A stretch of DNA of 64,000 nucleotides. It comes from Fomitopsis serialis. Lineage: Eukaryota > Basidiomycota > Agaricomycetes > Polyporales > Fomitopsidaceae. Location: NCBI RefSeq assembly GCF_022376445.1, contig NW_025954970.1, positions 62,001 to 126,000 on the forward strand. Direction: 5' to 3'. Both the position numbers and the translations under genes were made by a program. This document shows, piece after piece, positions 3,940-48,929 of this stretch (positions are counted from its first letter, which is position 1; every line of letters starts with the position of its first letter). The notes under the pieces are model-generated. The model searched no databases, was not told where the DNA came from, and saw nothing but the letters and a program-made list of their open reading frames with translations.

Positions 3940-4600
3940 TTTTCAAATATATTGCCTCACCTGCTCCCCGGAGCACTTCTCAGCCTGCCTATCGCGGCCC
4001 CTCTTCGATGTTGCCTCCAAATTTGCTAACACCCTATAACACATTGCGGTAGACGGTAGCGACAATCATCCAGCGGTTGATCATCTAAAATCATACTGAT
4101 CGCGTGCTCACCGGCCTTTCATTACAGGTACCGCTTGAGATCATTGTGGAGGACCTAGGAGCCGCGCTTCCGTTGCCCAAATACGCATATACCAGTCTCG
4201 ATAACGCTGGTCGGACAATTCCCTGTCTATATATGACTTCCTTGACATCTAGGGAAGAAGACCTAAGGGAGCTCACAGCGGCGGGATCTCTTGCGAGAGC
4301 GGGAGCCTGTTGTCGAGCTGTCCACAGTGGTCAGCACGCTGGCCGAGGGCCCTTGCCCCGAGGGTGTTCCACTCTTCGCATCATTGAACAGCTATATGTT
4401 CATTAGCGGAGAGGCAAGTCTAGATTTGCATCTGTATGATTGTGCTCTTGAAGCGTGACGTGATCGTTGCAGGTCTTCGCGGCTTTAATGGAGAGCGAAC
4501 GGTTGCATGAGGTAGAATCGACGACGGTGTTCTTTGACGAGAACCCGCATCCCATGGATCCAAACGAAGGGGCGTATACAACCAGCATAATGAGGTATTC
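3940..4600 (+). pseudogene. Degenerate Family 1b copy (cluster A)
   Basis: This aligns by eye with the intact Family 1b gene at 37524-38292. The first part (from 3949) matches the N-terminal exon around PRSxxQPAxxGxSSM, but a base is missing in the C run near 3965 and an in-frame TAG lies near 4050. The second exon follows an acceptor near 4127: LEIIVEDLGAALPLPKYAY parallels LDISAEDLNDMLPSPAYAY. After a deletion of roughly 35 codons, DLLREREPVVELSTVVSTLAEG parallels DLFRQRDNAIEVSASAGTL, in another frame. A GC-AG type intron (donor GCAAGT near 4412) may precede the VFAALMES segment. The broken frames mark it as a pseudogene. Confidence 0.6.
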
Positions 4601-4902
4601 TCGTGATGTATTCCGATCATGTTCAAGGCAGACTCGGAAGCATCGAGCGAAGTCCCATGCACGACACTGAGCTCCGTCCTCTTCGACGGACCTCATATTT
4701 ACACAGATGTGCGTACTATGCGAATTTGTGGTGGAAATTTTCTGTCGACTATGGGCTCAATAATCGACCAGCCATGTACCAAAAATACCACGTACCTCGC
4801 CAATGTCTTGTGTATAGACACACCTGCATATCAGTCTATCAGACACTAAGGGCCCCAAGCACACCGAGTGAAGACTGATACAATTAAGGTATGGTACAGG
4901 TT

Positions 4903-4959
4903 GCCCGGCATCTCGCGAGTGGGTTGGCGCCCAAGTACAAAGGACCAGCCACAGTCGCG
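4903..4959 (+). promoter_or_regulatory. Family 1 core promoter block, copy A
   Basis: This block contains CCCGGCATCTCGCGAG, then GGTTGGCGCCC, then GTACAAAGGACCAGCCAC and GTCGCG, 97-153 bases before the ATG at 5056. The same order of elements lies before the Family 1 genes at 36950 and 48929 and, more diverged, before 38292. Conservation outside coding sequence suggests a real regulatory element with a TATA-like AAAGGAC core. Confidence 0.7.
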
Positions 4960-5055
4960 TTCCCCCAGTTTCACTTCCCTCTTCGCACCTGCATTATCCC
5001 GCCCTCAGCGTTGCGCACAATCATCCATATCCTGGCTTCATATCGTCATTATACA

Positions 5056-6126
5056 ATGCCGACAACGATCCATCCCGATCGCGAATTCATCCACCTGCCG
5101 GATATGATACCCACCGACAACGCCACTGCGAAGACGCGCACCCTACCCTCTTCCGACGCGATGTCGCAGCAGCGCGTCGATGAGACGCAAAGTGCTTCCT
5201 ATTGCGTTGGTGTGCCTTACAAACACAACGTGAAGGCTCGACACCAGCGCAGTTCATCTTCCGGGACCTCATCCGACATGAGCTCCTGGAGTTCACAAGC
5301 ATATACGACGACCGACAGCCATGCCAAAGCGGTAAGTGAAATGACCACCTGGAGTCGTAAATGCATGTGTACTCACGGATGTTGTGCGATAGCCGGTCCC
5401 CCTTCAGGACCGGAACGGCAATACCCTGGCGAACCATCGTCGCCCCGAAGCGCCACCGACCTTCCTTGGAGGGGCCTTCCTCAACCCGGTCTGGGTCAAC
5501 ACCTCCCGTGTCGGCTTCGGCCATGTCGACCGCGCACACACCCACATGCTCGAGCCCTTCCGGGTTCCAAGGGGTGCGATCCTCAATCCCGTATGGATCG
5601 ACACCCCCGGTGTCGGACGAGGGAACGTGTCCGGTGCCCGCGCAGACCTCGAGCCTTTCAGGCCCAGCCTTGCCGAGGGTGCGCCTTGGCCGAATTGCCT
5701 CAGCCGCCAGAGGCAGGCGACCGCAGCCCCGCTGGAGCGTCCCCCAAAGTCTCCTGTGTACGATTATGGGGGGCCTCCGACGACCTCGACTGGGCTGTCG
5801 CGCTCAGCACCTACGACGGCCTCAATATCGAGGAGACGAAGCATGCCGTTGACTTCCTGTCCCTGTGGAAGAGGAAGTCGGAGAGCTTAGCCAGACGGTA
5901 CGAGGTGCAGTATCGGAAGGCGACGAACGTGGTCGAAAGAGCTGGGGAGGTGTTGCTGGAGGAGATACGGATGGAGGATGCCCCGAGCTTGCTGCTCGCA
6001 TCGTTGGAGGAAGACACGTCAGCCGAAGTTGTCGACAACACCTGGCCTGATGACTTCCAGACGCCGTCGAAGTTGGACAGCATCATGCCTGGCCTCGCCG
6101 GATTAGGCGAACACTTCGAGGATTGA
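5056..6126 (+). CDS. Family 1 protein, copy A (frameshifted; unknown function)
   Basis: Exon 1 is 5056-5331 and exon 2 is 5393-6126, with a 61-base intron placed as in the other copies. The ATG at 5056 fits the starts of the copies at 36950 and 48929. Exon 1 is Ser/Thr-rich. Exon 2 holds two repeats of about 34 residues, each of the form GA[FI]LNPVW[VI]xTxxVGxG...LEPFR. The C-terminal part (DLDWAVALSTYDGL, later DAPSLLLASLEED and PGLAGLGE) is conserved with the paralogs. Between these parts the frame shifts by one base at a run of six G (5768-5773); seven G would restore it. Either the copy is decaying or the base is a sequencing error. Without the shift it would be about 336 aa. No signal peptide, membrane segment or known domain is visible. 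Confidence 0.65.
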   Translation: MPTTIHPDREFIHLPDMIPTDNATAKTRTLPSSDAMSQQRVDETQSASYCVGVPYKHNVKARHQRSSSSGTSSDMSSWSSQAYTTTDSHAKAVSEMTTWSRKCMCTHGCCAIAGPPSGPERQYPGEPSSPRSATDLPWRGLPQPGLGQHLPCRLRPCRPRTHPHARALPGSKGCDPQSRMDRHPRCRTRERVRCPRRPRAFQAQPCRGCALAELPQPPEAGDRSPAGASPKVSCVRLWGASDDLDWAVALSTYDGLNIEETKHAVDFLSLWKRKSESLARRYEVQYRKATNVVERAGEVLLEEIRMEDAPSLLLASLEEDTSAEVVDNTWPDDFQTPSKLDSIMPGLAGLGEHFED

Positions 6127-7180
6127 AGGGACGTTTTGGGGGGTTGAACATACGGCGCATCGAAGAGAGACGCAACGCAAGGTCGTGGCTATGTTGGCCG
6201 CCGAGAGGTGTATGAAGAATTGGGGAGAAGGGTTTCAGCGAAGTGTATGTATCGGACAGCATTGTATTTGTTTCGTGATAGCAGCTACCTGTGACACAAA
6301 CCAACGCGTTCTCGACAGCACTGTTCGCGTGTCCGTGAATATCTGACTAGCCACGTAAGCGCCTACGTTTGAAAGGTCGGCAACAGCGCGACGCACCTGT
6401 GAGCTTCTGCCCTCATCATCAACGAGACACAACCAAGGCATCACTTCCTGCAGCACTTGAGTCAATGCGTTCAACACAGGAACAGGCGAGTGAGCTCACC
6501 GATCGTCTACTTCATCTGAGTAGCGCAGTCGAACGCTCACCACTTTCATCCTAACTCCGAGTATCGGTGGTGACCCTTGGAGTCGACAAAGTACGAAGGC
6601 CGCCTGTTATAAGGCTGCGCAAGGACAACGGACACCGCAGAAGCGGACAGCCATTCGGTAAGATTGGTGGTCATTAACCTCAGGAACAGAAACTATGCTT
6701 ACCAGGAGTTCATACACGCGGCGGTATACAGCGCAACGTCGATAGGCTGATTACTAGCGGAGTACGCAATGATGGATCGCGCGAACATGCTGGGTTCCTC
6801 GTTGTAGTCCATCCGTGGCAAGTCCAGCACGGGAAGCTACCTTCAGGTTGACGATAGCACGCGTCTATGGTCTTTGAAGAGTGGATCTGGTGCAGAGGAG
6901 CTGCTCCGCCTTATTCCTGGGATGCAACATATCTCCAGTGTGAAGACGAAGGTACTACGACTGTGCGAGCGGGAAAATATACGCTGACAGGCGCAAACTG
7001 TCATTCACAAGTACTGGCTGACGGTGTTGACGAACACCCACCTAAACTTGTAGAGCATTCTTGGATAGTCTTTCGTGTTTTTCCGATGAGGGAATGACCT
7101 GAAGTACGGATTTGGTTCCTATACGGCTGTACCAACGCTCGAGCACAGTCGCGCTGTAATACGCTAAGCTCGCCACAGGC
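6127..7180. other. Spacer between Family 1 and Family 2 genes of cluster A
   Basis: I see no gene. It should hold the 3' end of Family 1 copy A and the upstream region of Family 2 copy A. The equivalent spacers in clusters B and C are about 0.6-0.8 kb. Confidence 0.4.
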
Positions 7181-7235
7181 CGGTGTGGCTTGGGCCACCA
7201 TCGCGTAAGCGCCCAGCATAAAGACCGCCACCGAC
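7181..7235 (+). promoter_or_regulatory. Family 2 core promoter block, copy A
   Basis: CGGTGTGGCTTGGGCCACC is followed directly by ATCGCGTAAGCGCCC and CAGCATAAAGACCGCCACC, 103-157 bases before the ATG at 7338. Near-identical blocks precede the Family 2 genes at 35226 and 47373. The CATAAAG is a likely TATA-type element. The CGCG...GCGCCC...TAAAG-ACC order also resembles the Family 1 promoter block. Confidence 0.75.
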
Positions 7236-7337
7236 CTGAACTCGACTTGCACATTCTTGTCTTTGTCCTCCACGACAACAACGGAGCAAAGCCCCTTAGA
7301 CCCTACAAAAACTTCTCCAATAACTGATCAGCCTACA

Positions 7338-8727
7338 ATGCGCGCGACATACTTGCTCTCACTTACCAGACGCGACGCGAAGGCAAAGGCGAAGGCAAAC
7401 CTGAATCCCGCGAATGTGGCGTACGCTCAACCGGCCACCGTCTCGCGTGCAAATGGTGGACCACCCTACGCCGACGCATATACCAGCAGCACGGAGAGCC
7501 TCGCACGGGCCGACGAAGCCAGACGTATCGCGATTGAAGACAACGCCACTCCTCCCAATGTGGCCGCAGCGTCCTCGCACCAGTACTCGCGTACGCGACG
7601 CGTCCCAGACTACGGCATGATGCCTTTTCATGACTCCGCAAGAGATGGTCATGGAGCTGTGGAAGCCCAGCATCGCCGTCGTCGAGCCGATCGTCTTCGC
7701 GGCGCCTCGACCGACGCGGCCTCCGAAGGTTGACAGGGCGAACATATCCGCCATTGTTGACCACGATTGGGAGGTCTGGAGAGGTGGTGTGCGCCTACAA
7801 AGCACAAAACAAAGTACGGTCAACGACGACCGCCTGGTAAGTGACCATGTGTAACCGTACTCGGCTTTGTGCTTACCTTGGGTATGCGTCGTGCAGGTGG
7901 ATAGCGAGTTTGCTTCCTGGCCACCATTCCTACCGCATCATTGCGAGACGACGCGACCGACACAGCCGATGGCTGCGGGGCCTACGGCCACCAGAGCCCC
8001 GTCCACTCAAACGCTCCAGATCGTTGCTGTCGATATGAACTCGGCCCGGCTGGTCGACGTCAATGAACAGTCGAATGTACGCTCCCTGTCGGAGGAATCG
8101 GACTCATCCTCCGATACGGCGAGTAGTATTGGCCGCGAAGATGGATTCTGTGTCCAAGGAAAAGAGGATTGGGCGTACGGGCGAGCCGCTGTCGAGCCGC
8201 TTGTGATGAAGACTGTAGACGGCCCGTTGCGCGAATGCGACTGGATCGACTGTCCATTCTGCCCTTCTTCAGTCGGTGAGGCAGCCTTCTCGGGAGGGGA
8301 CGCCATCAACCTTGTAAGCCGCGCGAATCAAGACAAGTCGAAGGCGCCGCCGAAGGAGAGCGCGTCGCGAGCACGGGCGTCCGGACGCTCTCGACTTCGG
8401 GCTGGCCTACCGTCTTCAGGCAACAAGAGGACCTCAGCAAAGACTCGTCACGTCGAGACAGGCTGCACCCCAGCGAGAGAGAAAGGGTCCCGAGCGTCGC
8501 CCTCTACGAAAGACGTCTCCAGTTGCCCGCGACCTTGCGACTGGATCGATTGTCCGATCTGCGAGCAGGCCGAGTTCACGTCGACCGCAGCAAAATGCGA
8601 GGCTGCTGGACAAATTTGGCCTGGAGAGACTGCAAGTCGCAAATCATCAGACCGCAAGAACAGCAAAAAGGAGAGCAGGGAGTTCTATAGGGTTGCTGTA
8701 ATGTTGGGCCTAGTACCCGAGCTATGA
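7338..8727 (+). CDS. Family 2 protein, copy A (frameshifted; twin CDWIDCPxC motifs)
   Basis: Exon 1 is 7338-7836 and exon 2 is 7897-8727. The ATG start (MRATYLLSLTRRDAK) is shared with the copies at 35226 and 47373. A run of four T at 7625-7628, where copy B has three, shifts the frame by one base just before MTPQEMVMELWKP; otherwise the protein would be about 443 aa. Conserved parts are a DRANISAIVDHDWEVW block, a Ser/Asp-rich acidic stretch, two copies of CDWIDCPxC (DNA at 8236 and 8536, exactly 300 bases apart), a basic Ser/Arg-rich linker between them, and the C-terminus YRVAVMLGLVPEL. The Cys pattern could bind metal, but I recognise no family. No signal peptide or membrane segment is visible. 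Confidence 0.65.
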
Positions 8728-9655
8728 CTGCGATACGTGCGCTCAGGGTGATCAATTTCCCCATCTAGTTGACTGTCTCACCTATATTTGTAGAGTAGGC
8801 TGCCGTTGAAGAGAACAGCCCAGTCCTTGGATCATCGTCTGAGGTCGGTCATGAATTGATACAGTCGCGAGTGCCAGCAGTGGCCAAACGACCACCATCG
8901 TCATGAGACGATAAACTGGGTCACAAGCGATACTGGAGCTGCTGGCGAGGTCGACCTGCCCGACTAGGGCGAATATATACATGTCAGGGGCAATTTTTGC
9001 GAGGAGAAAGGAGAAAGACACAAGGAAGACTTAGGAAGACAAGTGAAGTCGGTGAAGGACGACGTATCTTCCGATTACAGTCACTACTTAGGGGAGGCAC
9101 GGACCGATGTATTGATGCTTGATTGATGCTTCAAAAAGTGTATTGCGTTGTTTCTTATCAACTCTTATTGTGGCATACAAAGCTACTTATGGTGTGGCTT
9201 GGTGTCAATAGTAAGTTGAACGTCCTCAATCTTCCTCTCCTCATCTCATGGACCACGCCGTTTATAACGGCCACGAACGCACGGTTGTCGGAACATTCAA
9301 TGTCGCATACGTTACACAGCCGCTATGCGCTGAAGAGCGTACTACGGTACGAGCTTCAAGTTGACCGGAATTCGGGCGCGCCACTGCATTCCCCTCAACC
9401 TGGTTCCAACGGAAGCTTCGTGCCTGTCCCAGGTCTGGAAGCAGATTGGACTAGCAGCTATGTACCACGGGTGTGCCTTGGGATGTGCCAATAAAGCACT
9501 CGCATTTGTGAAGAACGGTCTTCATCGCTCTCCCAGTCGCCATTAGGCGTCTTGTTCCGAGAACGAAAGCCTGCGCTGCCCGCCTGCCTTGTGCAGACTC
9601 CATGGTGTGCCTTGTGTAGCATCGATATGGCCTTCAAAGAGCTCGAGGACCCTAA

Positions 9656-10137
9656 GGAACCGCACGGATCGTTATAAACGATGACATGTATATGTCCCAA
9701 AATGTGCAGAAACGTTGACGGTTAGACGTTCCATCGTTACTTACAGATAGATTTGGAGAGGAGAGTCAAAGAAGATGAAGGGCCAATCGTACCGACGTCC
9801 GGGTCCGTAGTCACATTCCCCGTCCGCCTGTTCGTCTGCTACATTGGTTTGAATCCCCGCCAGCGTTTGCATTGTCTGTCTTGCACAAACGATGACTCCA
9901 GCCTGAGCCGTGCCACGCGAGTCTTCTGCTTTAGGCGAACAATATCGTCTGTGTGAGCAGAATTGGTTAGCTGAGTGGCTCGCGGCAACCTCCGTGGACC
10001 TGCGAAACAGCCACAGCTGGCCACTCATAGTGAGACCGTCTGCTATAAAAGCGAGCCATGGAGAAGGCAGCGTACAGCAAACTGGCCCGCAGTCGTCGCT
10101 CCACATCTTCTACCACTCCTGCCCGCCATGTCGAGGT
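9656..10137 (+). promoter_or_regulatory. Upstream region of Family 3 copy A with TATA box
   Basis: A good TATAAAA lies at 10044-10050, about 90 bases before the ATG at 10138, a normal spacing for a fungal promoter. An ATG at 10058 opens another frame and is probably in the 5' leader. Nothing else is supportable in this stretch. Confidence 0.5.
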
Positions 10138-10735
10138 TCGGCAAGGTCAACCCTTGCGTGGACTACACGTTCACTCTCCAGGACTATGTCCTGGGCGGCA
10201 AGAAGTTCGACGCGCTTCCGTCCGAAATGAAACCATAGTCTCCAGGTTCACGACAATGGATCCGAAACTCACCAACGACCCGAAACGTATCGTCACCCAT
10301 AGGGTTGCATTGAGGCGAGGGCTGCTCAGAGACCTATTGGCTCTAGACGACCGCATCCGAACACGCCGCGACGCGGTTCGAATCCAAACCTACGAAGCCG
10401 GGCGGACTTCATTTCTGCGATGGTGGCAGGGTGCGCTGCGGCAAGAGCCGATTAACCAAATCATGCAGAACGACCTGAAGAGGAGGAACAAGTTAGTGGC
10501 CGCGTTTGTGATGCATATCGACGCGCTAGTGTGGCTGGAGACGTTCGATCGCAGCGGCTCGCCGCACAGGAACCCAGCCGAGATACGCGAGTATCGAGAC
10601 GAGTTCCTCACGCCCGTCGCGGAGGTAGTCAACCATTCGCTCATGTTCCTGGGCGAGTACATTCTGTCCCCTTCAGAGGACGCGGCGTTGGATGGAGATA
10701 GCGCACTCTGCGAGGCGCTCGACCGAGACGAGTAG
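10138..10735 (+). CDS. Family 3 protein, copy A (frameshifted; unknown function)
   Basis: The frame from ATG 10138 (MSRFGKVNPCVDYTFTLQDY) stops at 10238. The homologous continuation, from TIVSRFTTMDPKL to LDRDE, is in another frame from about 10230 to 10735. The paralog at 60746-61402 is uninterrupted and aligns across both parts: VxYRDELLxPL versus IREYRDEFLTPV, and FDGLVCLENWE versus IDALVWLETFD. A one-base indel near 10225 is the simplest explanation; a 26-base GT...AG segment there is too short for an intron. The protein would be about 199 aa, helical and rich in Arg and Leu. No domain is recognised. It is either a decaying copy or a sequencing error. Confidence 0.6.
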
Positions 10736-11277
10736 AGCCCTCTGCATGGATTGCGCTCATCCGTGGCACGCATTGTAAGCGATGAAATCTGCGTGCCCTC
10801 TGACACTGACAGAGCTGACGAACCGAAGTTCACAGGTGGTTGAGGATCTATGATTTCAAAAGCAATATTCAGCAGTAGCCGTACGATCGATTGCATTGTA
10901 CTCACTACGTATCGTACGTACAATGAAGACTGGGATCCATGGGATATGATTCAGTGCTAGTTGTGATGAGCGCAGCGCTCTTTCCCGAATCCTGGGCTAT
11001 CACCAAACCTGGTGTAGTGTTCAAACCTGTCAAACATAGCCAGAGTCCCGTCTCTGGGACAGCACTCGTCTCTGTAATACCATCAATACCAACGCCGGGT
11101 CTCTGAGAAGCGAACGAGCAGTCTGCAAGCTGGGTGTGTAAGTACTGTACGTGCTGGCAGCGTCGGATCCGGCTGGGGTGGTTGGCGCCTGTTTGCGTGT
11201 ATTTGGAGCCTCAGAGACACTCAGTGTGGCGGCAACAGACCAAGTCGTAGTCGACTCTCGCATCAACCTACTCAACC
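10736..11277. other. Intergenic region before the API5-like gene
   Basis: No gene is visible. It must contain the 3' end of the Family 3 copy and the promoter of the downstream API5-like gene. No clear TATA box is seen. Confidence 0.4.
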
Positions 11278-33274: not shown

Positions 33275-33849
33275 TTGAATAGAGTCCTCCTGAAGGCCAT
33301 ATCGATGCTAACACATGGAGTCTGCACAAGGCAAGCAGTTAGGCGGCATTGAACCATGCATCGTGGCCGTTGAACGGCGTGGTCTGAGATGAGGAGAGGA
33401 AGATCAATGAGAACACCGCACTCAAATTGAACTTACTAAGCCACACCATAAGTAGCTCTGTATGCCACGATAAGAGACACGCAATACATTTTTTGAAGCT
33501 TCAATCAAGCATCAATACATCGGCCCGTGCAGTCCTTAATAATCGGAAGAAGATACGTCGTCCTTCACTGACTCAGTGACTGCACCTGTCTTCGTCGTGT
33601 CTTTCTCCTTGCAAAAAATGCCCTGACATCTTTGCCCTCGCCGAGCTGGTCGACACCACACCACAGCGCTTGCGATCCAGCTTACTATTTCATGATGAAG
33701 GTGGCCGCTGCTGGCACTTGCGACTGTATCATGACCGACTGCTCAGACGGTGATCCAAAGACGGAGCTGTTTTCTTGAACAGTCACAAGTACAGGTGAGA
33801 ACATCAACTAGATGGAAAAACTCGATCCCCCTGAGCGGACGTATCGCAG
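33275..33849 (-). repeat. 3' flank of Family 2 copy B, duplicated with cluster A
   Basis: Read on the minus strand, this matches the 3' flank of Family 2 copy A (8728-9655) except for about 270 bases present only in A. No gene is visible. The stretch 32877-33274 also holds nothing recognisable beyond the chitinase promoter. Confidence 0.6.
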
Positions 33850-35226
33850 TCACAGCTCGGGCACTAGGCCCAACATGACGGCAACCCGATGGAACTCCCC
33901 GCCTCCGTTTCTCCTGGTCCTGCGGTCCGACGGCTTGCGATCTGTAGTCTCTCCGGCCGAGCACTGTCCAGCATTCTTGCGCCGCGCCGTGGTCGCCGCG
34001 GACTCAGTCTGCTCGCAGATCAGACAATCGAACCAGTCGCAAGGTCGCGGGCAACTGGAGATGTCTTCCTTGGAGGGTAACGCCCGAGTCCCTTTCTCTC
34101 TCGCTGGGATGCAGCCTGTCTCGACGTGACGAGTCTTTGCCGAGGCCCTCTTCTTGCCTGAAGATGATGAGCCAGCCCGACGTCGAGAGCGTCCGGACGC
34201 CCGTGCTCGCGACCCGCTCTCCTTGGGCGACCCCTTCGAGTTGCCTTGATGCGCGCGGCCTGTGAGGCTGTTGGCATCCCCTTTCGAGAAGATTGCCTCA
34301 CCGACCGAAGAAGGACAGAACGGGCAGTCGATCCAGTCGCATTCGCGCAACGGCCCGTCTGCTGTCTTCATCACAATTGGCTCGACAATGGCGGGCCCGT
34401 ATGCCCAATCCTCTCTTCCTTGGACACAGAATCCATCGTCGCGGCCAAAGCTGCTTGCCGTATCGGAGGATGAGTCTGATCCCTCCGACAGGACGCATAC
34501 ATTGGACTCTTCATTGGCATCGACGGGCTCTGAACCCAGGTCGTCAGTGACGAGGTTCTGGAGCGTCAGAGTGCCCGTACCTGGAAACGCAAGCCCCGAA
34601 GACATCTGATGTGTCGGTGGTACGGTCTCGCAACGATGTGGTAGGAATGGTGGCCACGAAGCAAACTCGCTATCCTCCTGCACCACGACGCGCACCCAAG
34701 GTAAGCACAAAGCCGAGTACGGTTGCACATGGTCACTCACCGGGTGGTCGTCGTTTACCGTACCCTGCTTTGTGATTCGCAGACGCACACCACCTCTCCA
34801 GACCTCCCAATCGTGGTCAACGATGGCGGATATATTCGCCCTGTCGACCTTCGGAGGCCGCGTCGGTCGTGGCGCCGCGAAGACGATCGGCTCTACGATG
34901 GCGATGCTGGGCTTCCATAACTCCATGACCATCTCTTGCGGAGTCATGAAAGGCATCATGCCGTAGTCTGGGACGCGTCGCGTACGCGAGGACGCTGCGG
35001 CCACATCGGGAGGAGTGGCGTTGTCCTCAACAGCGACACGTCTAGCTTCGTCGGCCCATGCGGGGGTCTTCAGATTGCCCGTATATGCGTCGGCATAGCA
35101 TGGTCCGCCATTTGAACGCGGGGCGGTGACCGGTTGAACGTACGCCACATTCGTGAGGTTGAGGTTCGCAACTGCGTTCGCCTTCGCGTCGTGCCTGGTA
35201 AGTGAGACCAGATATGTCGCACGCAT
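33850..35226 (-). CDS. Family 2 protein, copy B (intact; twin CDWIDCPxC motifs)
   Basis: Exons 35226-34741 and 34677-33850 give 437 aa. This is the intact closest relative of copy A. It has the start MRATYLVSLTRHDAK, the DRANISAIVDHDWEVW block, a Ser/Asp-rich acidic stretch, the first motif CDWIDCPFC, a basic linker, the second motif (CDWFDCLICEQ here, with Trp-Ile to Trp-Phe and Pro to Leu changes) and the end HRVAVMLGLVPEL. The 63-base intron between the exons has lost the in-frame stop seen in copies A and C, so it could also be read through (458 aa). It lies downstream of Family 1 copy B on the same strand. Function is unknown; the paired Cys motifs suggest metal binding or a structural role. 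Confidence 0.75.
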   Translation of the reverse strand: MRATYLVSLTRHDAKANAVANLNLTNVAYVQPVTAPRSNGGPCYADAYTGNLKTPAWADEARRVAVEDNATPPDVAAASSRTRRVPDYGMMPFMTPQEMVMELWKPSIAIVEPIVFAAPRPTRPPKVDRANISAIVDHDWEVWRGGVRLRITKQGTVNDDHPVSDHVQPYSALCLPWVRVVVQEDSEFASWPPFLPHRCETVPPTHQMSSGLAFPGTGTLTLQNLVTDDLGSEPVDANEESNVCVLSEGSDSSSDTASSFGRDDGFCVQGREDWAYGPAIVEPIVMKTADGPLRECDWIDCPFCPSSVGEAIFSKGDANSLTGRAHQGNSKGSPKESGSRARASGRSRRRAGSSSSGKKRASAKTRHVETGCIPAREKGTRALPSKEDISSCPRPCDWFDCLICEQTESAATTARRKNAGQCSAGETTDRKPSDRRTRRNGGGEFHRVAVMLGLVPEL

Positions 35227-35322
35227 CGTAGACTGATGGTTTCGGTCAAGGTGATTGTAGTGTGCGAGTGTGCTTTGTGTCGCTAGATATGCGTCGTCGT
35301 GGGCGGACAAAAACAAGGATGT

Positions 35323-35380
35323 GCGGGTGGCGGTCTTATACGTTGGGCGCTTACGCGATCATGGCCGAAGTCGTACACAG
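35323..35380 (-). promoter_or_regulatory. Family 2 core promoter block, copy B
   Basis: The minus strand reads GGCCATGATCGCGTAAGCGCCC, split by CAACG, then TATAAGACCGCCACC, 97-154 bases before the ATG at 35226. It matches the copy A and C blocks in order and spacing. Confidence 0.7.
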
Positions 35381-37049: not shown

Positions 37050-37106
37050 GTGAATGTGGCTCGTCCTTTGACTTCCGGCGCCTAACCGCTCGCAAAATGC
37101 CGGGGC
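37050..37106 (-). promoter_or_regulatory. Family 1 core promoter block, copy B
   Basis: The minus strand reads GCCCCGGCATTTTGCGAG, then GGTTAGGCGCC, then GTCAAAGGACGAGCCAC, 100-156 bases before the ATG at 36950. It matches the block before copies A and C. Confidence 0.7.
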
Positions 37107-38292: not shown

Positions 38293-38410
38293 TGGCCGCG
38301 ATATGTTCTATGTCGAAGTGACGAGCAGACGTTGGTGGTACAAGGTTGTGCGGTGCCTGGCGCGTGAGGTTCATCGACTTGGACTGGGTGTGCAAAGTCA
38401 GATGAGAGAG

Positions 38411-38475
38411 CCGACCGTAGCCACAGCGGTCCTTCGTGTTTGAGCGCCTACGCTGCCACTCGCAGAATGCCGAGC
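38411..38475 (-). promoter_or_regulatory. Family 1-type promoter block before Family 1b
   Basis: The minus strand reads GCTCGGCATTCTGCGAGTGG, then GTAGGCGCTC, then ACACGAAGGACC and CTGTGGCTACGGTCGG, 119-183 bases before the ATG at 38292. It is diverged but collinear with the Family 1 blocks. Confidence 0.55.
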
Positions 38476-39046: not shown

Positions 39047-39376
39047 CTTGAAGTTCGTGTCCGCGTTCGCCCATTCTGACCTCACTTGCAACTCTTGCGG
39101 GCTGCAGTGTCAGACAGTCTATTCGATCTTTGCCGCGCGTATTCTGGAACATTTGCTGGGGTTCCGTGAGGCTGAAGTAACGCCCCCAATCTGATCTGCC
39201 AGTAGGCTGAACCTGAGTACTTGAGTATTCATACGTCACAGTGCATACATGCTCACAATATCGTTCACAACCTGTACCACCAACGGCTCACACGTGCCAA
39301 CTGGAACGTGTTCGACCCGTTGATGGTACAGACTGCACAGGCATCACAGGTTTTCTAGCTACGAAGACAGGTGCGG

Positions 39377-39740
39377 GAGTGGATGGACAGGCAGGAGGGT
39401 CGACACATGCGCGATGAAGAGATACATGCAGGAGACGGTGACCCGAAACACAAACCACGAACCCATATAGCCACTCGCAGCACGAGGGCGACGCCACCCG
39501 CAGCCTTTCGGCACGGGGGCGGGCGGACAGCTCCTCTCGGTGCTGCCGCCAGTAGGCCACCCGCGGCATGTGCTCCGCACGCGGGGGCAAGCGGACAGCG
39601 CCCTTCGGCACTGCCGCATCGAACCCACGAACACTACATGAGCGGAAGTTGAGTGGACAGGTAGGGAAGGCATGACAGGCGCGATGGGTGGATGGTACAT
39701 GAGGGGAAGCGGACCGCGGACGACGAACCACGAACCACAA
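39377..39740 (+). repeat. Nested imperfect direct repeats
   Basis: A block of about 90 bases at 39377-39466 (GAGTGGATGGACAGG start, CCACGAACCCA end) recurs at 39650-39740. Between them a second pair (CCACCCGC start, GGACAGC end) stands at 39494-39550 and 39556-39617. Open frames across the region on either strand are repeat-driven and have no recognisable domain. Confidence 0.55.
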
Positions 39741-39912
39741 GACCACACGGAAACTACTGACCTTCGCCTGCATGGAGCGGTGAGTCGCGACCTTGATTAA
39801 TGGTTGATGAGACGACGCACCAAGTGCTTGAAGTTCACAGATGACAAGACCAGTGGAAGGAGGTGAGGGAGGAAAGGAAAGGAGTGTTGGCGACTCGGTA
39901 CGTTTGCGAGGT

Positions 39913-39921
39913 CTTTATATA
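39913..39921 (-). promoter_or_regulatory. TATA box with CT-rich leader, no recognisable gene downstream
   Basis: The minus strand reads TATATAAAG, followed by a pyrimidine-rich leader (TCCTTTCCTTTCCTCCCTC) and an ATG at 39773. It looks like a strong fungal promoter, but the downstream frame (39773-39288) runs into the direct repeats and resembles no known protein. It may be an orphaned promoter. Confidence 0.35.
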
Positions 39922-41033
39922 CCCGACTGGGCTGTCAGCCTGGCGGATGCGGCTGGCTCAGGTCTCTGACCGCCGTCAGCAACCCACCAATGTTCTGCGC
40001 GCCAGGCTCTCACTCGATCTGTTGGCCTGGGTCGCAACGCGGTCACGTGATACGTCTTTAAACCACCTACGGCAGAAGTTGCACAGCCGTGGACCGTGGG
40101 TACCTGCGACTCATGCACATGGCCCCCACATACTCACGGAGACGAGGATTCTCCAGGATGCGCTTCAGGTGATGTGTTGAGTTCCCTGTCGGTGGGCTCT
40201 GCGGATCCCTAATAGGGCTTACTCTGACACAAGCACACCGCCGACACTCGCAAGTGTGAGTACTGGTCGCATCGATGATGTATACGATACTGACCTCCTC
40301 AACGTCAATCGAAACTTATTACCACCTGGATGTCCAGCGCCCCCGGTAAGGAAGAGAATCGCTCTTTGCGCATGTCAAACGATGTTGCACGGAAGACGCA
40401 CTTCCCGCACCGCCCAATGATCGTCTTGATGCGCTTGTCATCCTATAGTAGGGTTGGACGGCCTGCGGCTCCCTTACTACCATACTCGACGCCTCAAACG
40501 TCATTGATGCCTCGAACCTCGAGATTACAAATATTTCATGTTCAACGTTTGTCATTTAACAATCAATCGCGCCCATATCCCCTCCGAGTCGCGCCTACTC
40601 CTCACAGTCCGCGAGCTCCGGATCCAAGAACGCCATCCTGTCCCCGTTCTCGCACTGCTCTGCCCCTTCCCTCTTCAATTTGAACTCGGTCAAGCGATGC
40701 CGAGGGTGCGCTCGAGCGCGGAGTCGCACCCAGGTCCGCGGATGGCGTCGAGCCTGAGTGTACGGCCGATCGTAAAGGAGGTCGCTGGACGGTAGTTCCC
40801 TCAGGCTTCTGCACCAGAGCCGTGGATGCTCGATGAGGATGTCCGAGGCCCATTCATTTACTAGACAGACCAACTTCGCTTCGAATACATTGTACAAGCT
40901 CGACTACGATCTTCTCCAGTTTCGTCTCACTGTACGAAGAATATCAGCTGAAGTCCGGGGGGGTGCCAATGCGCTACCAGACCTTCTAGTATACATGAAC
41001 TATCTGCCTCGTTGCTAGGCTGCGTCCATAGTA
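39922..41033. other. Intergenic stretch with possible coding debris
   Basis: No gene can be supported. A minus-strand frame at about 40960-40595 (NVFEAKLVCLVNEWASDILI and DLLYDRPYTQARRH) looks like protein sequence but lacks a proper start or known motif and may be a gene fragment. Confidence 0.35.
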
Positions 41034-42283
41034 TCAGTTGCCAGTCGAGGTGTTATGCATGATAGGGTCAGAAAGCATCCTAAGCAACCATTCATCCAGC
41101 TGCCGTTCATTGTCCCGGAACTCTTGGAACTTCTCGTCAATCCGCTCCGTTGTACAATAGACAATGTCCTGTATGTTCGGGTTGCTTCTGAGCCTTTCGA
41201 GGAACATCGTGGAGCCTGCGTCGTTACCGATTTGATTCACGCAGAATCGGACTGCGGTCGGCTCATATCCAGCGCGAACGAGGCGTTGACGACATTCTGC
41301 GATAGCGTCCTCGAATTGGATCTCGTAGTCGCCTGGACAGCCGTCTGTGACAACACAGATCAACAATGGCCGCTCGAGGAGGCGTGCACGGTGGTCCGGC
41401 CGATCTAGGACATCATATACCAGCGGCTGGAGAACGTGGTTCCGTAGGTTTGTGCCCAGGGGTGTCCCACCATCGGGTGACACTCTATCGACTGCGTTGA
41501 GCACATGGGATGCGGGAATGTTGTCCTGCGCTGCCCATACAGCATTGATGAATCGTAAACTTACGCCGTATGGATGGGGTAAGACCCGCGTTGTGATGTT
41601 GGCAATGCGGGCTACGACGTTACGCTGAAGGACCCAGCGCGTTGGGCTATCCAGCGTCATCGACCCGCTGTCATCACAATACAGCACCGGGTGGTACAGA
41701 CTCAGGCGGATGAGTCGCGTGACGTTTTGCCTCGTCACAGGGAAGGATCGCCCATCGTCTTTCAACTGCGCAGCGTTCGCCTCGACTGTCTTGACAAATG
41801 TGTCGTTGGCTTTGAAGAATTTCTGTAGCCCAGACGCAGCGACGTGCTCCGTGATCACTTCGTGGGCTTCCTGGACGTCCAGAGCCTACCGACGAGTCAT
41901 TCAGCGTCTTGATCAAGATATCACAAAGAAATTGAGTAATACAACGGTGCTTACCGGTGCAGAATACTCCTGAAGTTCGGATCCTGGCATCCTTTGCAGT
42001 AACATCACACGACGGGATGGGGCGGCCTCAGGACATGCAAGCAATCCAGAGCCTGCGTCTGAAATTTGAGCTTCCGTAGCCTGAGGGATAGCACGGCGAA
42101 TGGCAGATTGAGCCGATGTGTGGGCAACTACTCCAGTGGAACCCGACCGGACAGCGTGATGGACCCCCTGCCGTGCAGATGTCTATAGAAAATTGAAGAC
42201 GTTTTGAACATAACGCCAAAGTAGGCGCGGGATGAACGACATACCCCATCATCGGATGATGGCACGCTAAAATCACCAGGCAT
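41034..42283 (-). CDS. von Willebrand factor A-domain protein
   Basis: Exons 42283-42245, 42182-41955 and 41885-41034 join to 372 aa from the ATG at 42283. A conserved lead-in (SELQEYSAPALDVQEAHEVI) precedes the vWA domain. The MIDAS metal site DDSGSM lies near residue 158 (VLYCDDSGSMTLD), with PDGGTPLGTNL supplying the Thr and LICVVTDGCPGD the distal Asp. Later strands include YEPTAVRFCVNQIGND and DIVYCTTERIDEKF. The last residues form a helical tail (NERQLDEWLLRMLSDPIM). Such soluble vWA proteins are common in agaricomycetes and presumably bind partners; their role is unknown. The start is uncertain because open frame continues upstream into the transporter gene (see findings). Confidence 0.8.
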
Positions 42284-42381
42284 TCCTCGCAGGCCACTTG
42301 AGCCATGAGCACACGGGACAAAGTCATCATTTGTGTCCAAGCCGTCATCCTTCCATTGCCATGTTAGCTACCACGAACAGT

Positions 42382-44861
42382 TCAAAGGCTACAAGACGAA
42401 CTGCATACCTTGTCGACGGAAGGGCTTTGCTTCGGATGTACCATCGGAGAACCATTGTGCCTGGTATGGGATGCAGCCGGCGTTGCTACGTGGTCATCTT
42501 CTGCTGTAGCCTCCTTCTCCGACAGGCTCGCTGACGTCACATCTGGGGCTGCAGGCAGGAAGTAGGCGATAACGATGCCTAATGCACCACATAGTGCTGC
42601 GATGATGAATCCCCACCTGTACCAACATATCAGCTACATTCGACATGATGCGCGAGCAGCCCCGAGTCCTACACCACACTCACTGCTTACGGAGATTCTC
42701 ATCGATAGTGTTGAAGGCATGGATTCCCGCCAAGGCGCCTGCAGTCCCGAAGGCGGCAGTAACACCGTAAAATGACCCCCTTATATCGTTCTGTCAGAGC
42801 GATTGGCGAGGATGCCTATGGCTGAGGTTTACCTGAAGTTCCGGGGGTACGATCTTGAAGTTGACCATCAGTCCGGGGATACGCGAGATGAATGTGATAG
42901 GGTCGACTCACTCTAAGGCGATAAGACTCAACATATTTCCAGGACCCTAATTTGTCGTCAGCGAATGCGTCCAGACTGTCAACTATCGCGACTCGCCAGG
43001 TTTCCCATGAAGAGCATCAAAGCGTAGCTGTTCAGAGTTGAGTCATTCGATAGGGTAAAGGATGAATGGTCACGTACAGAACCACCAGAAGAGGGACGAT
43101 CTTGACGAGACGGTCGTATGCACAACCAATGATCAGGGCTGTGTCCGTACACAGTGACTTACAAGATTAGAAAGGTGGAGTGTGGGAGGCAAGCGACTGA
43201 CCAAAGACAACATAACCCGCGAGTGAAACAAGCATCTTGTTCAAGTCCCAAGCGTCAGCAGCCGCAGAGCATCTGGCACTTATATAGATGCTCACGATGT
43301 TACGTCTTCCCATAGCATCACACCACATAGCGCCTACCCAGCTTCCGCAGAGAGCAAAAACGCCCAGCAGCAACTCGAATCCTGCGGTTCTCCACAGGTC
43401 CCCATCGACGATGGTGTAGAGAATGACTCCCGAGAGTACAATCTTGGGGTATGCCACCTACATGCCTGATATCAAGACTCAAGAAGCATAGATACGTGAA
43501 GGTCATGCTTACGAAATTATACACAAACCTGAAGAAATCAATCGGGTAGAATTTTGTGAGAAAATGCACAACAACAACAACTAAGGCGGCGTACCATAGG
43601 CAGCATGTACGAGCCATCCCAGCCCAGTTTCGTCTGAGCTCCAATGAATACACGGATAGATCTGCTAAGATTAGCTATGTTTAGGCGTCGACATGCGTGA
43701 TTTAACAGCTCGTCCAGACGTACGCCCCATGATACGCCTTCCGTACCTGTATATACCGGGGTCACCTATCAACTCATGTGGCAATCATGGTTACACTCAC
43801 CGTTCAGAAATGTCCCGTAGGCTGCTATAACAAATCGCTGCTAGTGGAATGACGATCCCTATCCCAGTGCACACTGGCCACACAGTAGCGAGATGTTCTG
43901 GACGCGCCGCTGACAGCACGACGAGGAAGACAATTGTTGCTAGCGGAGCTCCAGCCTTCAGTGATGATGTTAGAGACACGCTTCTACTTACGACAACAGC
44001 ATACGCACGCTGAACATGACGTTGGTCATCAGAACAAATACTGGAGAAACACCGTAGTCAATGTACGCGGATCATCAAGTCAACAAGATGTCACTACCTC
44101 GTCCCTTCTTGGTGGTCATATCATCGACGGCTTCAAATGCAATCGTACATGCTGAAGTATAAATGCCGCCAATTCCCTGAGAGATGTAAATGCATCGAAT
44201 CATACATAACATGAAATTGGTATGTCTCCTACCACGCCTATGATACCTCTCGCGACCGTCACGAACCACAGCAGGCCCGACAAGCCTCCGTGAAGACCGC
44301 GGGCAGCTGTGCAAAGTACAGCGCCCACGAGAATCATGGCGGCTGACGCAGACAACGAAGCCTTCTGTCCGAATCTATCGCAAGATAGTCCGAAGGCTAT
44401 CTGACCAAGAAATTGCCCTTGGCGAGCATACATCAAGCGTCAAACTCCGTTCGGCAGGTCGAAGGTAGGGCTTGCACCCACACAGACTGACCGACGAGTA
44501 GTGCGTCCCACGATCGTAGCAGGTCCTCCCTGCGGTAGCTTTGATCGTACAACATCGCGAACACAACCTGTATCGCCATTGGGTCATGAATCGATGTGTA
44601 TGTTCCATACACTGCACGCACGTCAATCATGATAAGTATGTTGAAGTAATCTGAGCGGGGAGACGCCAATCGGTTCCGTCAGGTCTTCATGACATGTAAG
44701 GTCAATATAGACTTACAGGACGCAGAAAGAATAGCGAGAGCTAGGACAATGGAAGTCGGAGGCATCCGCGAGCTCGCCGTGACGCCCTCGCTCGTCATGC
44801 GAGGGTTCGCGGCGGGCGCGCCGTCTCCTAGGTCCGCAGTAGGCTTGGGTGAATGAAGCAT
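42382..44861 (-). CDS. MFS transporter, PHO84/Git1-like phosphate or glycerophosphodiester type
   Basis: The ATG is at 44861 and a TGA at 42382, with a dozen or so short exons. Readable pieces in order: a polar N-terminus (MLHSPKPTADLG), TSIVLALAILSAS, YYFNILIMID, LLVGQFLGQIAFGLSCDRFGQK (the MFS loop 2-3 signature), FVTVARGIIGVGIGGIYTSA with GIGG as in PHO84 and Git1 transporters, VFVLMTNVMFS, LATIVFLVVLSAARPEH, a second half with LCGSWVGAMWCDAMGRRN, LIIGCAYDRLVKIVPLLVVL, and the last helix ALCGALGIVIAYFLPAAPD followed by a Ser/Glu/His-rich cytoplasmic tail. It should be a plasma-membrane proton symporter; the substrate is not shown. Exon boundaries were only partly fixed. Confidence 0.8.
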
Positions 44862-45954
44862 TGAGGAGGAAAGAGATAGCTGGTCACGCCAGCGCGCAGC
44901 ACCATTAAGTATGACTTATCCCCGGGAACTCGCCAAGGATCATGGCCGGTCAAGAGTTCGCGTCAGAGATCGGCGAGTAGCGGTCATGACACGAGGATGT
45001 GAGGCAAACTGAAGCAGTAAAAGAGGGTCAATATGCATCCAGTCAACATCGACTCTGCCGGAAGTAACATCACTTCGCTCGACCACGTTGCAGGCCACGT
45101 TTCGGCTAAGTACGAGTATGGTACCTTCGTTACCATACGACTGTCAGAGCTGAAGCAGGCAATGTGGATAACGACGAACCCGGTGAGGCAACTCCCCAGG
45201 GTGATTTATCTTCATTGACCTCGGGGACAGGTGCCGTAGTGACGGTAGAAGCCGCTGCATGGCAAGCCATACAGAAGGGCCTTGGTCGCCATGATTAGTC
45301 GTTCTTGGTCTCAATATCCGACTGAGAGGAATCCTCGTAAAATCGCGAGAGAGTTGCCCATTCAAGTTAACCGTTGGTATTGAACAGCCGAAGGACTCGG
45401 AACAACCTGAGATACTATAATCCCTCAGTGTCTGCTGCTTCTGTGTCTAATCATAGAGTCTACGGTTCGCCGTACACGTACGCAGCAGGGGTTTTGGTCC
45501 TTACACAAGATCGGGGATTGGGATGGACGGGAGGCGTCTCGGATTGGCGTTCGTCGGTGGTTTAGGTCACGGTTCAATTAATCCTAGGCGCCTGTAGTAT
45601 CATACATAAGTACGCTATTGTAATACGATTTTGAAGTGTCAATACAATGGTGCTATTCGGGAGAAGTCCGCGACGTCGCTCTACTCCGAGTCTTGTCCAC
45701 ATCGGTCGTGCAGCCTTGAGCCATAGCTTTGCACTAGCTACTCGATGCCAGCGGATGGCACATCGCTTCAGCCTTGGCTTACTGTCTCACGGGCAGTAAC
45801 TACTTAATCAATCGCGACTAAGTACGTCGACGTGGTACCCACTGATCAGACGAGGAATGTGCTACTCTCTTTCAAAGCCCTCTAGGTGAGAAGATAAAAC
45901 ACATTGCACGGAACGAAACAGCCCTGAACATATACATCGCCGCCAGTCATGCAT
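44862..45954. other. Intergenic region between transporter and cluster C
   Basis: No gene is seen. It holds the transporter promoter and the 3' flank of Family 2 copy C, which does not resemble the duplicated 3' flanks of copies A and B. Confidence 0.4.
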
Positions 45955-47373
45955 TCATGGCCCGCGCACTAGGCCCAGCATGACCGCGACCTTGTAGAAT
46001 TCCCCTCCTTCCTTCCTCCCGTGCTTGCGCTCCGGTCCCAACTTCCGACGTATGGCATCCTCAGGCAAGCGTTGTGCATCGGTCTTGCATTCTACCTTGG
46101 TCGGTGCGGATATGGCCTGCTCGCAGATCGGACAATCGATCCAGTCGCAAGGCCGCGGGCAGCTGGGGACGTCTTTTCTCTGCCCCCATCGCTGGGACGG
46201 TGCATCTACGATGTCACACCGTGTTTCAGGCTGGCGAGGGGCGTGGGTGTCTAGAAATCTTCCACTCAAAGCATTCGAGCTGGAATCTCGTTGAGGGCGA
46301 GCGGACGTCTTCGCATGGTGAAGACCTTTCCTGCGCCTCGTTTTAGGGTGCGCCTTGTCCCGTCTGGCAGCGGTTTGGGCGGCGATATCCATCGTCGAGT
46401 AGGATGCGTCGCTTCCCTTCTGGTCTGCCACAGGTGTGCAGAACGGGCAGTCGATCCAATCACATTCGCGCAAGGGGCCATCCCCCGCCTGTCTTGCGGT
46501 CGCGTCCACCACGCTAGGCTCGTGCTCTTCGCCATCAGTCGGCGTGCCATAAGGAGCACTTAGTATGTCCAGCCGGCCAGCGTCGCGACCAAGACTCCAA
46601 GACGTCTCGGAGGATGTCTCCGAAGCATCTGACGCGGGTGGGGAGTTCGTGACTGGGTAGAACTGGGCGTCCTGTAAGCACCCCGCCATACTCCCTACAT
46701 TCGGTGCACTCACCATGTCATCCAGGTTGATCTGAGAGCAAATGGATTTCACTTGTGTCGTATCGCTTCGCCGCGGCGAAAGAAGCGGCCATGTAGCAAA
46801 GCTGTCGTTATCCGTCTGTAGGCGTGGCACACTAGGTGAGCACGAAGCAATATACGGTTATACGCGGTCACTCACATGGCGATTGTCATTGACCGTATTT
46901 GTTTCGGTGCTCTGTAGACACACCCGACCTCCGCAAATTTCCCATTCGTGATCCACGATGGCGGATATGTTCGCCCTATCGACCTTCGCCGGACGCATCG
47001 GTCGCGGTGTCGCGAAGATGGTCGGCTCAACGACGGTGACATTGGGAATCCACAGCTCCGTGACCGTCTCTTGTGGGGTTATGTAGCACATCCCGTCATA
47101 ATCCGGGACGCGTCGCGAACGGGAATGTTGGCGAGAATACGCGGCGGCCACGCTCGGGGGAGTGGCGTTGCCTTCAAGAGCGTCGCACTGGGCCTCCTCG
47201 GGCTCCACGAAGGACTCCGGGCTGTTCGAGAACACATTGGTGTACTGCGGTCCACCAATTGAACGTGGAATAGCAGCAGGTTCGGCAAACGCCACATTTG
47301 CGAGGCACAGGTTCGCGTCCGCGTTGACGTTTGTGCCGCGTCTGGCAAGTGAGAGCAAGTATACCGCGCGCAT
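45955..47373 (-). CDS. Family 2 protein, copy C (intact)
   Basis: Exons 47373-46876 and 46815-45955 give 452 aa. The start MRAVYLLSLARRGTN, the DRANISAIVDHEWEI block and the intron position match copies A and B. The acidic Ser/Glu stretch is followed by GPLRECDWIDCPFC, a long basic linker with Arg/Lys runs, CPRPCDWIDCPICEQ, and the C-terminus YKVAVMLGLVRGP. Outside these motifs it has diverged strongly from A and B, so the preserved blocks are probably the functional core. It lies downstream of Family 1 copy C on the same strand. No known domain is recognised. Confidence 0.75.
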
Positions 47374-47481
47374 TGTAGGCTGATGAGATTGATAGGGTTG
47401 TTTTGGCGTCCTGGGAAGGTTTGTGCCGCGAGATAGTTGTCGTCGTCGGGGACAAAGACGAGGATATGCAACTCAAGTTCG

Positions 47482-47543
47482 GGTTGGTGGCGGCCTTTAT
47501 GCTGGGCGCTTACGCGATGGTGGCCCAAGCCACACTGGCCGGC
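47482..47543 (-). promoter_or_regulatory. Family 2 core promoter block, copy C
   Basis: The minus strand reads GGCTTGGGCCACC, ATCGCGTAAGCGCCC, then CAGCATAAAGGCCGCCACC, 109-170 bases before the ATG at 47373. It is almost identical to copy A although the proteins have diverged. Confidence 0.75.
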
Positions 47544-47953
47544 GGCAAGCTATGTCGATATCGCCTCGGCGCAGATTGGGTCTCCCGCAAGTGTTGTGCG
47601 GTGGTCGGCGACAGACGTTGGATCACGAAGATGGGGATACGCTCAGACAGTGGTGCGGCCGAGTTACATGACCAAGTTCTTAGCTATGCATAGCGGCTAT
47701 GTTCGTCATCGAGCACATCCAGGCGTTTGTGAACAAGAAATGGTGGTCTTCAAAACATATAAATCACTTGAACCGATGGCTTAGACTGGCTATCCCAAAA
47801 CAAATACAAATGCTGCCCGACAAGCCGCTGATAGGATCCCTCCTCGCTTCACTGGCGACAAACACTCCCGTCTCTTATGCCATGCCCACTACCTTCCGTA
47901 TTCACCGTACTCTCCCAAAGCCTCGCCACCACTTCGACCAGCCGGTACCCGAG

Positions 47954-48929
47954 TTACTCGCGTAATCCGACCAGTCCTGGGTCTACATCCGATGGCGTCT
48001 TGATGCCAGTGGGCAAGGTGCTCTCGGCTCTCTCGTCTGACGCATCTTCGTGCGCCGGTGCGAGCAACACACTCGGGGCGTCATCCGTACGGGGTTTCTT
48101 CAGCAACGGATCCTCGCCAGCACTGCCGACCATCTTCTCAGCCTCCCGCCACAGCGCCTTCGCCTCCTCCGATGGGCCCATATCCTGTGCCAACTTCTCG
48201 ACATTCAGCGTCGGCTTCTCGATGTGGAGGTAGTCGTAACTACGGAGCGCGGCAGTGCAGACGAAATCTTCGGACACTTCGCGATCGGGCACCGGAGGAG
48301 ACTGCCACAGGACTCTGGTAACCTGCTTCTGTTCGCCGACGTACTCGAGCCATGACGGATTAGCGAGGCTCGGCCTAAATGGCTCGAGGTCTGCGCGGCC
48401 CCCGGAGATGTTTCCCAATCCAACTTCGGGCATAGCGATCCAGACAGGGTTCAGGATCGCACCCCTGGGGAGCCTGAAGGCCTCAAGGTTGTTTCCGCTG
48501 GCGAAGGTGGAGCGGTACCCAGAGCGAGCGGTGTTGCTACGGATTGGGTTGAAGACGGCCCCTCCAGAGAAGGGCAGCGGTGCTTCAATATGACCAGTCG
48601 CACGGTCGTCAGATCCTGGGCGTCCAAGGGGAAACTCCTATCGCGTCATTCCGGTGAGCACACATGCATTTACGTCTGCAGATTGTCATTCGACTGACCG
48701 CTTTGCCATGACTGTCTGCTGTCGTATATGCTTCTGTGCTCCAAGAGCTCGTCGACGTGGTCTCCGAAGATGTGCTGCGCTGATGTCGGAGTCCTGTAGT
48801 AACGACGCGCGACTGGGATATGGCGGGCATATCATTGAGGTGTTCCTTTGACGTTGCTTTGGTGGAATGTAGGGGGGTGATACAGGGAGTGGCGTCTCCA
48901 ATGGGTATTATAGGAGTGGTCGACAACAT
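47954..48929 (-). CDS. Family 1 protein, copy C (intact)
   Basis: Exons 48929-48699 and 48637-47954 give 304 aa. Exon 1 is Ser/Thr-rich and close to copy A near its end (RHQRSTSSETTSTSSWSTEA; YTTADSHGKA). Exon 2 has two repeats: a diverged GGAVFNPIRSNTARSGY...NNLEAFR and a well-kept RGAILNPVWIAMPEVG...RADLEPFRPSLA. The C-terminal DDAPSVLLAPAHEDASD and PGLVGLRE match copy A. This is the cleanest intact representative of the copy A type. It is followed 581 bases downstream by Family 2 copy C. No signal peptide or membrane segment is visible; function is unknown. Confidence 0.75.

Follow-up and report, generated by a model that had tools for sequence, protein, structure and literature searches.

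A recurrent, probably co-regulated gene cassette with rapid copy turnover in the bracket fungus Fomitopsis serialis

Introduction

The described systems closest to the genes analyzed here are the wtf-type multi-copy killer meiotic drivers (with tdk1 as a further example), the heterokaryon-incompatibility and NLR genes of fungi, and the homeodomain mating-type pairs of mushrooms. The wtf proteins of fission yeast have several transmembrane helices, and the homeodomain mating-type genes of mushrooms form two-gene units that exist in several copies with divergent alleles and are linked to the gene for mitochondrial intermediate peptidase. We examined positions 62001-126000 of contig C2 in the 66-Mb, 806-contig assembly of Fomitopsis (Neoantrodia) serialis, a wood-decay bracket fungus; this whole stretch of 64,000 bases is called the window, and coordinates given without a contig are positions within it. 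The window contains three copies (A, B, and C) of a gene cassette in which a gene of family F1 and then one of family F2 lie on the same strand, in some copies after a gene of a third family, F1b. Here, we report that this cassette is real and apparently undescribed, that it is probably co-regulated, and that its copies turn over fast.

Like the wtf-type drivers, the cassette is lineage-restricted and multi-copy, with dead copies and differences between haplotypes. However, it comprises up to three genes, and no membrane stretch or strongly hydrophobic leader was found in nine of its proteins by hydropathy (highest 19-residue Kyte-Doolittle means of 0.53-1.36; no dedicated signal-peptide or membrane predictor was run). 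Haplotype divergence, variable repeats, and rapid turnover are features that the cassette shares with heterokaryon-incompatibility and NLR genes, but no HET, NACHT, or WD-repeat family scored above the Pfam cut-off in the F1, F1b, and F2 proteins that were scanned. The homeodomain mating-type pairs are likewise multi-gene units with several copies and divergent alleles. In contrast to those pairs, the cassette genes lie in same-strand order, and no homeodomain scored above the Pfam cut-off in the scanned cassette proteins, the genome itself not having been searched for homeodomain genes.

Results

Gene models of the three cassettes

Seven genes of the window were rebuilt as spliced models. Cassette A lies on the forward strand and contains F1A (exons 5056-5331 and 5393-6126, intron 5332-5392) and F2A (exons 7338-7836 and 7897-8727, intron 7837-7896), which are preceded at approximately 3820-4520 by a degenerate F1b that was recovered as tblastn pieces in three frames, with a best expectation value (E) of 2.8e-4 against five short stretches. 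The other two cassettes lie on the reverse strand. Cassette B consists of F1bB (exons 38292-38038 and 37976-37524, intron 38037-37977), F1B (exons 36950-36687 and 36626-36012, intron 36686-36627), and F2B (exons 35226-34741 and 34677-33850, intron 34740-34678), with open frames of 235, 292, and 437 amino acids, respectively. Cassette C consists of F1C (exons 48929-48699 and 48637-47954, intron 48698-48638; 304 amino acids) and F2C (exons 47373-46876 and 46815-45955, intron 46875-46816; 452 amino acids), both with open frames, and the best match to F1b ahead of F1C reached only E 0.45.

These models bear out a preliminary description of the window, which had placed F1 before F2 on the same strand in three places, with F1b ahead of F1 in cassette B and, in degenerate form, in cassette A; its starts and stops were correct for all seven genes. 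It had also taken the seven for complete one-intron genes. The intron holds in every model (a single GT-AG intron of 60-63 bases), but F1A is frameshifted at a run of six G (5768-5773) and F2A at a run of four T (7625-7628), and therefore only five of the seven models are open. The frame change of F1A is also present in the other haplotype. Six of the introns are in phase 0, and the intron of F2A is out of phase only because that gene is frameshifted. For cassette C, the same splices occur in the public models P0006 (F1C) and P0001 (F2C); compared with our models, P0001 has one additional intron and P0006 a later start.

The cassette order recurs across the genome

The order F1b-F1-F2 recurs outside the window. 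Loci were collected through genome searches with F2, F1, and F1b proteins and through local tblastn, in which only the best candidates were scored, so the locus counts are lower bounds. At least nine F2 loci were found at E <1e-9 on C2, C15, and C462, and F1 or F1b lies immediately 5' on the same strand at all nine. A matching first exon of F1b occurs at at least 14 loci, on C2, C15, C178, C679, and C462, and F1 is the next gene on the same strand at 12 of them, with a spacing between match starts of 1.5-1.8 kb in 11 cases and 4.6 kb in the case at 87 kb of C15. At the remaining two (1.1 kb of C2 and a close copy on C462), F2 comes directly after F1b. Four loci that match F1b in its C-terminal part alone (23.1 kb and 28.8-29.1 kb of C15, 37.0 kb of C178, and 177.7 kb of C679; E 1.7e-4 to 0.0074) were excluded from the 14, and counting them would change the share of F1b loci followed by F1 to 12 of 18. 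Remnants of F2 were found 3' of F1 at 6.7 kb and 15.8 kb of C15, 192 kb of C679, and 51 kb of C178, of which the one at 15.8 kb is weak (E 0.02-0.03). The earlier view that the families have been kept together thus extends beyond the window in both order and strand; because duplication and allelism connect the loci, the counts do not represent independent events.

A shared promoter element precedes genes of all three families

Upstream of each of the seven genes modeled in the window, a promoter element starts 125-156 bases ahead of the ATG. Upstream of F1A it reads GGCGCCC-N3-TACAAAGGAC (4926-4945, forward strand), starts 130 bases before the ATG, and was recovered by both the pattern and the matrix described below. 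The site of F1C (49054-49073, reverse strand) matches the pattern and was a matrix training site, and those of F1B (37063-37082) and F1bB (38429-38448), both on the reverse strand, were training sites that the stricter pattern missed. Among the F2 genes, the site of F2C (47492-47510, reverse strand) matches the pattern and ranked 19 in the matrix scan as a non-training site, and that of F2A (7208-7226, forward strand) matches the pattern with a matrix rank that is within noise. The variant upstream of F2B, AGCGCCCAACGTATAAGACC (35332-35351, reverse strand), was read by eye and, like the sites of F1B and F1bB, does not match the pattern.

Across the 66 Mb, the pattern GCGCCCRN{1,4}AYAAAGRNC matched 15 sites, 12 of which, all on C2 and C15, precede cassette genes of the three families (F1b in one case and F2 in four); three lie away from cassette genes, and a reversed control pattern also gave three matches. 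Because this pattern was derived from sites of all three families, a second test used a matrix built from six F1 and F1b sites alone, which was scanned over 538,988 positions of sequence rich in cassettes. The top 22 rows represent 21 distinct sites, and 20 of these lie 5' of cassette genes: the six training sites, five alleles or identical copies of training sites, five sites of other F1 copies, and four sites of F2, which are those of four of the eight F2 loci and occupy ranks 19-22. Assignment to a cassette gene was by position relative to protein matches for ranks 1, 8, 16, 17, and 18 and, among the pattern matches, for C2:27291. Since several F2 copies rank low or outside the top 45, we consider the element to be shared but degenerate in several F2 copies. 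The upstream regions were also compared in 11 pairs with 500 shuffles each. No shuffle reached the score of both F1b/F1 pairs or of two F1b/F2 pairs, and a further F1b/F2 pair, reached by 24 shuffles, aligns elsewhere than at the promoter element. A nearly cassette-specific shared element would fit co-expression of F1b, F1, and F2. To our knowledge, it is uncommon outside secondary-metabolism clusters for one promoter element to be common to three gene families that keep a fixed order.

We also observed a strong copy of the element at the rank 12 site (C15 14438, reverse strand), approximately 450 bases ahead of an open frame for which no match to the three families was found by tblastn.

Family relationships and duplication history

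F1b is related to F1 through its C-terminal half (hhalign E 1.1e-9). A common origin of F2 with either family was considered and rejected, as profile comparisons gave only E 0.43 and 0.1; the sole hints at such an origin are that the families have the promoter element in common and resemble one another in their intron. When the window was compared with itself by blastn, F2A and F2B were 78.9% identical over 2129 bases, F2A and F2C 73.9% over 725 bases, and F1A and F1C 71.1% over 440 bases. F2A and F2B form an inverted repeat with arms at 7189-9286 (forward) and 33352-35370 (reverse) that are 79% identical, and the identity of their proteins is 69% in exon 2 and 76% in the stretch of exon 1 that precedes the F2A frameshift. 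F1A and F1B gave no DNA-level match at E 1e-5 in the same comparison, and their protein identity is 36-39%. The suggestion of the preliminary description that the gene pair was duplicated as a unit therefore needs division. It fits A versus C, as well as C versus an additional pair on the other haplotype (D, below), but it fails for A versus B, in which closely similar F2 genes accompany strongly divergent F1 genes. Two histories would explain this: a duplication or conversion of F2 in A and B apart from F1, or a far higher rate of evolution in F1B.

Approximately residues 95-163 of F2, in its N-terminal part, recur in a second group of genes, located on C482, C313, and C68 (E 3e-10 to 5e-6 among 6172 frames), and a reciprocal genome search upheld this link and added C168. 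The tandem family that carries this domain occupies 3.9-16 kb of C482, 1-14 kb of C313, 190-229 kb of C68, and 17-19 kb of C168.

Constraint on intact copies and decay of others

The ratio of nonsynonymous to synonymous divergence (dN/dS) was 0.40 for F2B versus F2C and 0.28 for F1bB versus the F1b of C462, both of which are rough because synonymous divergence exceeds 1 in each pair. Between F2C alleles the ratio was 0.16, from six differences only, and the other eleven comparisons ranged from 0.31 to 0.85. In F1A, exon 2 showed a ratio of 0.27 ahead of the frameshift; past it, the haplotypes differ by 10 nonsynonymous and 1 synonymous changes, which are small counts.

The two haplotypes differ in arrangement and in intact copies

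We interpret contig C15 (136,193 bases) as the other haplotype. The segment at 9766-35263 is inverted on C15 (78374-52269), with three main pieces that are 91.2-94.0% identical, and in the assembly as it stands the ends of the inverted segment fall in the F2A/F2B inverted repeat. When C2 and C15 are compared in 1-kb pieces, the window from 37 to 64 kb shows identities of mostly 97-100%, with exceptions at 41 and 48 kb (92.3-92.5%) and at 53 kb (96.5%). From 2 to 37 kb the values are mostly 83-95%, apart from 73% at 3 kb and 97-99% at 22-25 kb. C2 from 125,996 to 130,000 gave no alignment to C15.

Which cassette copies are intact differs between the haplotypes. On C15, exon 1 of F1B contains an insertion of approximately 285 bases with terminal inverted repeats, the intron of F2B carries one of approximately 640 bases, and F2 at the A position contains a stop. 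C15 also has the additional pair D at 115-118 kb, whose F1 model loses its frame near the end and for whose F2 the public model is shorter (371 amino acids); searches with F2 and F1 found no counterpart of D on C2 beyond 111 kb. D belongs to a longer duplicated block that includes the neighboring 41-45 kb gene region, which fits segmental duplication.

Two further observations concern these regions. The exon 1 insertion of F1B spans C15 82256-82556, and has terminal inverted repeats of approximately 24 bases; its middle part is partially matched at one more place in the genome, C2:130384. Window positions 41000-45000, which adjoin cassette C, are repeated beside D at 118.9-122.8 kb of C15 and partly again at 129.4-130.2 kb, with 65-74% identity.

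Protein properties and relatives

The F1b and F1 proteins are acidic (isoelectric point 4.3-5.3 in six proteins), and those of F2 have isoelectric points from 5.8 to 8.0, with a positively charged C-terminal quarter in the three examined. All five aligned F2 proteins contain two CDW[IF]DCxxC motifs (CxxxxCxxC), which probably bind zinc; the F2 copy on C462 has lost both. The products of all three families appear to be intracellular and largely disordered. The F1 proteins of Rhodofomes roseus contain a 21-residue repeat, with four copies in P0009 and three in P0010. Separately, long proline repeats of the PGLP type occur in exon 1 of F1 copies at 9-10 kb and 33-35 kb of C15 and at 42 kb of C178.

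The absence of a known domain, as noted previously for the two main families, was upheld. The scan of F1, F1b, and F2 proteins gave no Pfam family above its cut-off, the E of 0.08 for bpX5 being at chance level; none of the three family profiles matched a PDB entry with an E of 1 or less, and a single-protein search of the PDB gave two chance-level matches only (E 2). Three protein searches were run in a set of 5.8 billion proteins by a method that needs shared five-residue words and may miss distant relatives, and one of them scored only the best 7996 candidates. Among the best-scored candidates, 14 proteins were relatives: seven from F. serialis, the window's own P0003, five from R. roseus, and one from a metagenome, which matches F1 and lies on a contig of 1359 bases. 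All three families are present in R. roseus, and its C8Q71 genes include F1 and F2 on contigs each listed at 1,782,642 bases, presumably one contig. A literature search of titles and abstract openings found no paper on the three families, which is not proof of absence in print, and a search for the F2 cysteine motif string gave no match.

Elsewhere in the window, the open frames at 10049-10735 and 60701-61402, both on the forward strand, showed a weak relationship when compared once with one another (E 1e-6, 36% across 55 residues), and neither matched a Pfam family.

Discussion

As a tentative explanation, we propose that F1b, F1, and F2 form a lineage-restricted, co-regulated module that evolves by birth and death and perhaps acts in genetic conflict or recognition. 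The three genes would be turned on jointly via the one promoter element, and their products would most likely belong to one complex, in which F2 may be a metal-binding and perhaps nucleic-acid-binding anchor, with a short N-terminal domain and a basic C-terminal part, and F1 and F1b may be its acidic partners. Copies would multiply by segmental duplication, rearrange via recombination between inverted copies, and die by frameshift, stop, or insertion. High copy turnover is usual for genes of genetic conflict or of recognition between nuclei or individuals, and it is for this reason that a role of that kind is proposed.

Nearly as likely is an ordinary stage-specific cluster without conflict, in which the element answers one developmental regulator (of fruiting, spores, or stress) and the copies serve dosage. 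The shared promoter element, the fixed order, and the constraint on intact copies favor such a cluster, which by itself, however, leaves the broken copies, the haplotype differences, and the narrow species range unexplained. The F2 remnants, the frameshifts in A, the degenerate F1b, and the excess of nonsynonymous changes past the F1A frameshift, small as those numbers are, would instead be expected of an orphan family that is young and whose copies arise and die almost neutrally, with tandem and segmental duplication carrying promoter and order along and many copies in the course of being lost. We regard this as unlikely, given that dN/dS is 0.28-0.40 between open divergent copies and that all three families occur in two genera.

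It is very improbable that the cassette belongs to a mobile element, as part of its own gene set or as cargo. Such an origin would suit the presence of many copies over several contigs and the repeat-like insertions in the C15 copies, but the scanned proteins contain no transposase or integrase domain (the intergenic spacers were outside the scan), and copy D lies within a longer duplicated block. Secreted or wall proteins, such as effectors, might also diverge rapidly and contain the repeats of F1 and the paired cysteines of F2, yet the hydropathy profiles lack a strongly hydrophobic leader, F1 and F1b are acidic, and the C-terminal quarter of F2 is positively charged, and we give this explanation the least credence of all. 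A bolder form of the conflict or recognition hypothesis, which we consider doubtful though somewhat less remote than these last two, is a self-contained dikaryon recognition or transmission-distorting system, in which co-expressed cassettes would have different specificities per nucleus and would be reshuffled by inversion between copies, without HET, NLR, wtf, or homeodomain parts.

Several observations weigh against the co-regulated module that we propose. With respect to the promoter element, the genome-wide pattern was itself drawn from sites of all three families, F2A has a matrix rank of only 30, and F2B, its allele, and the F2 copy of C462 fall outside the matrix top 45; in the upstream comparisons, 28-51 of the 500 shuffles reached the scores of four F1/F2 pairs, and the F1B/F2B pair and the F1b/F2 pair of C462 were no better than chance. 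Kinship and linkage are incomplete as well: profile comparison detects no kinship of F2 to F1 or F1b, the F1 genome search and local tblastn found no F1 match close behind any of the four C-terminal-only F1b loci, the F1 profile matches nothing at E 0.1 beside the F2-like genes of C482, C313, and 6 kb of C68, and the EVJ58 genes of R. roseus place F2, F1, and F1b on three contigs (94,611, 21,991, and 17,249 bases). The AlphaFold models are of low confidence, with mean predicted local distance difference test scores (pLDDT) of 33 and 32.

With respect to a role in recognition, copy pairs elsewhere diverge as well (93.6% identity for C68/C482, perhaps alleles, and 96.9% for the start of C2 and C462), and we therefore stop short of taking the inversion to prove balancing selection. 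M3-peptidase matches were found on C596, C112, C223, and C409, with none on C2 or C15, where contig ends limit the test of linkage. Linkage of the cassette to mating type was accordingly rejected within the limits set by contig breaks, as the STE3 and M3-peptidase matches all lie on other contigs, and mating-type genes thus offer no help to a recognition role.

In the searches made here, the three families had neither a Pfam match above the cut-off nor a profile match to a solved structure. Should the module prove to act in conflict or recognition, it would provide a molecular handle on a process whose poor understanding in basidiomycetes is noted in the abstract of PMC8229728. Otherwise, the cassette would still be a clear example of an orphan cluster that is probably co-regulated, with a 25.5-kb segment between its inverted copies lying in opposite orientation in the two haplotypes of F. 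serialis.

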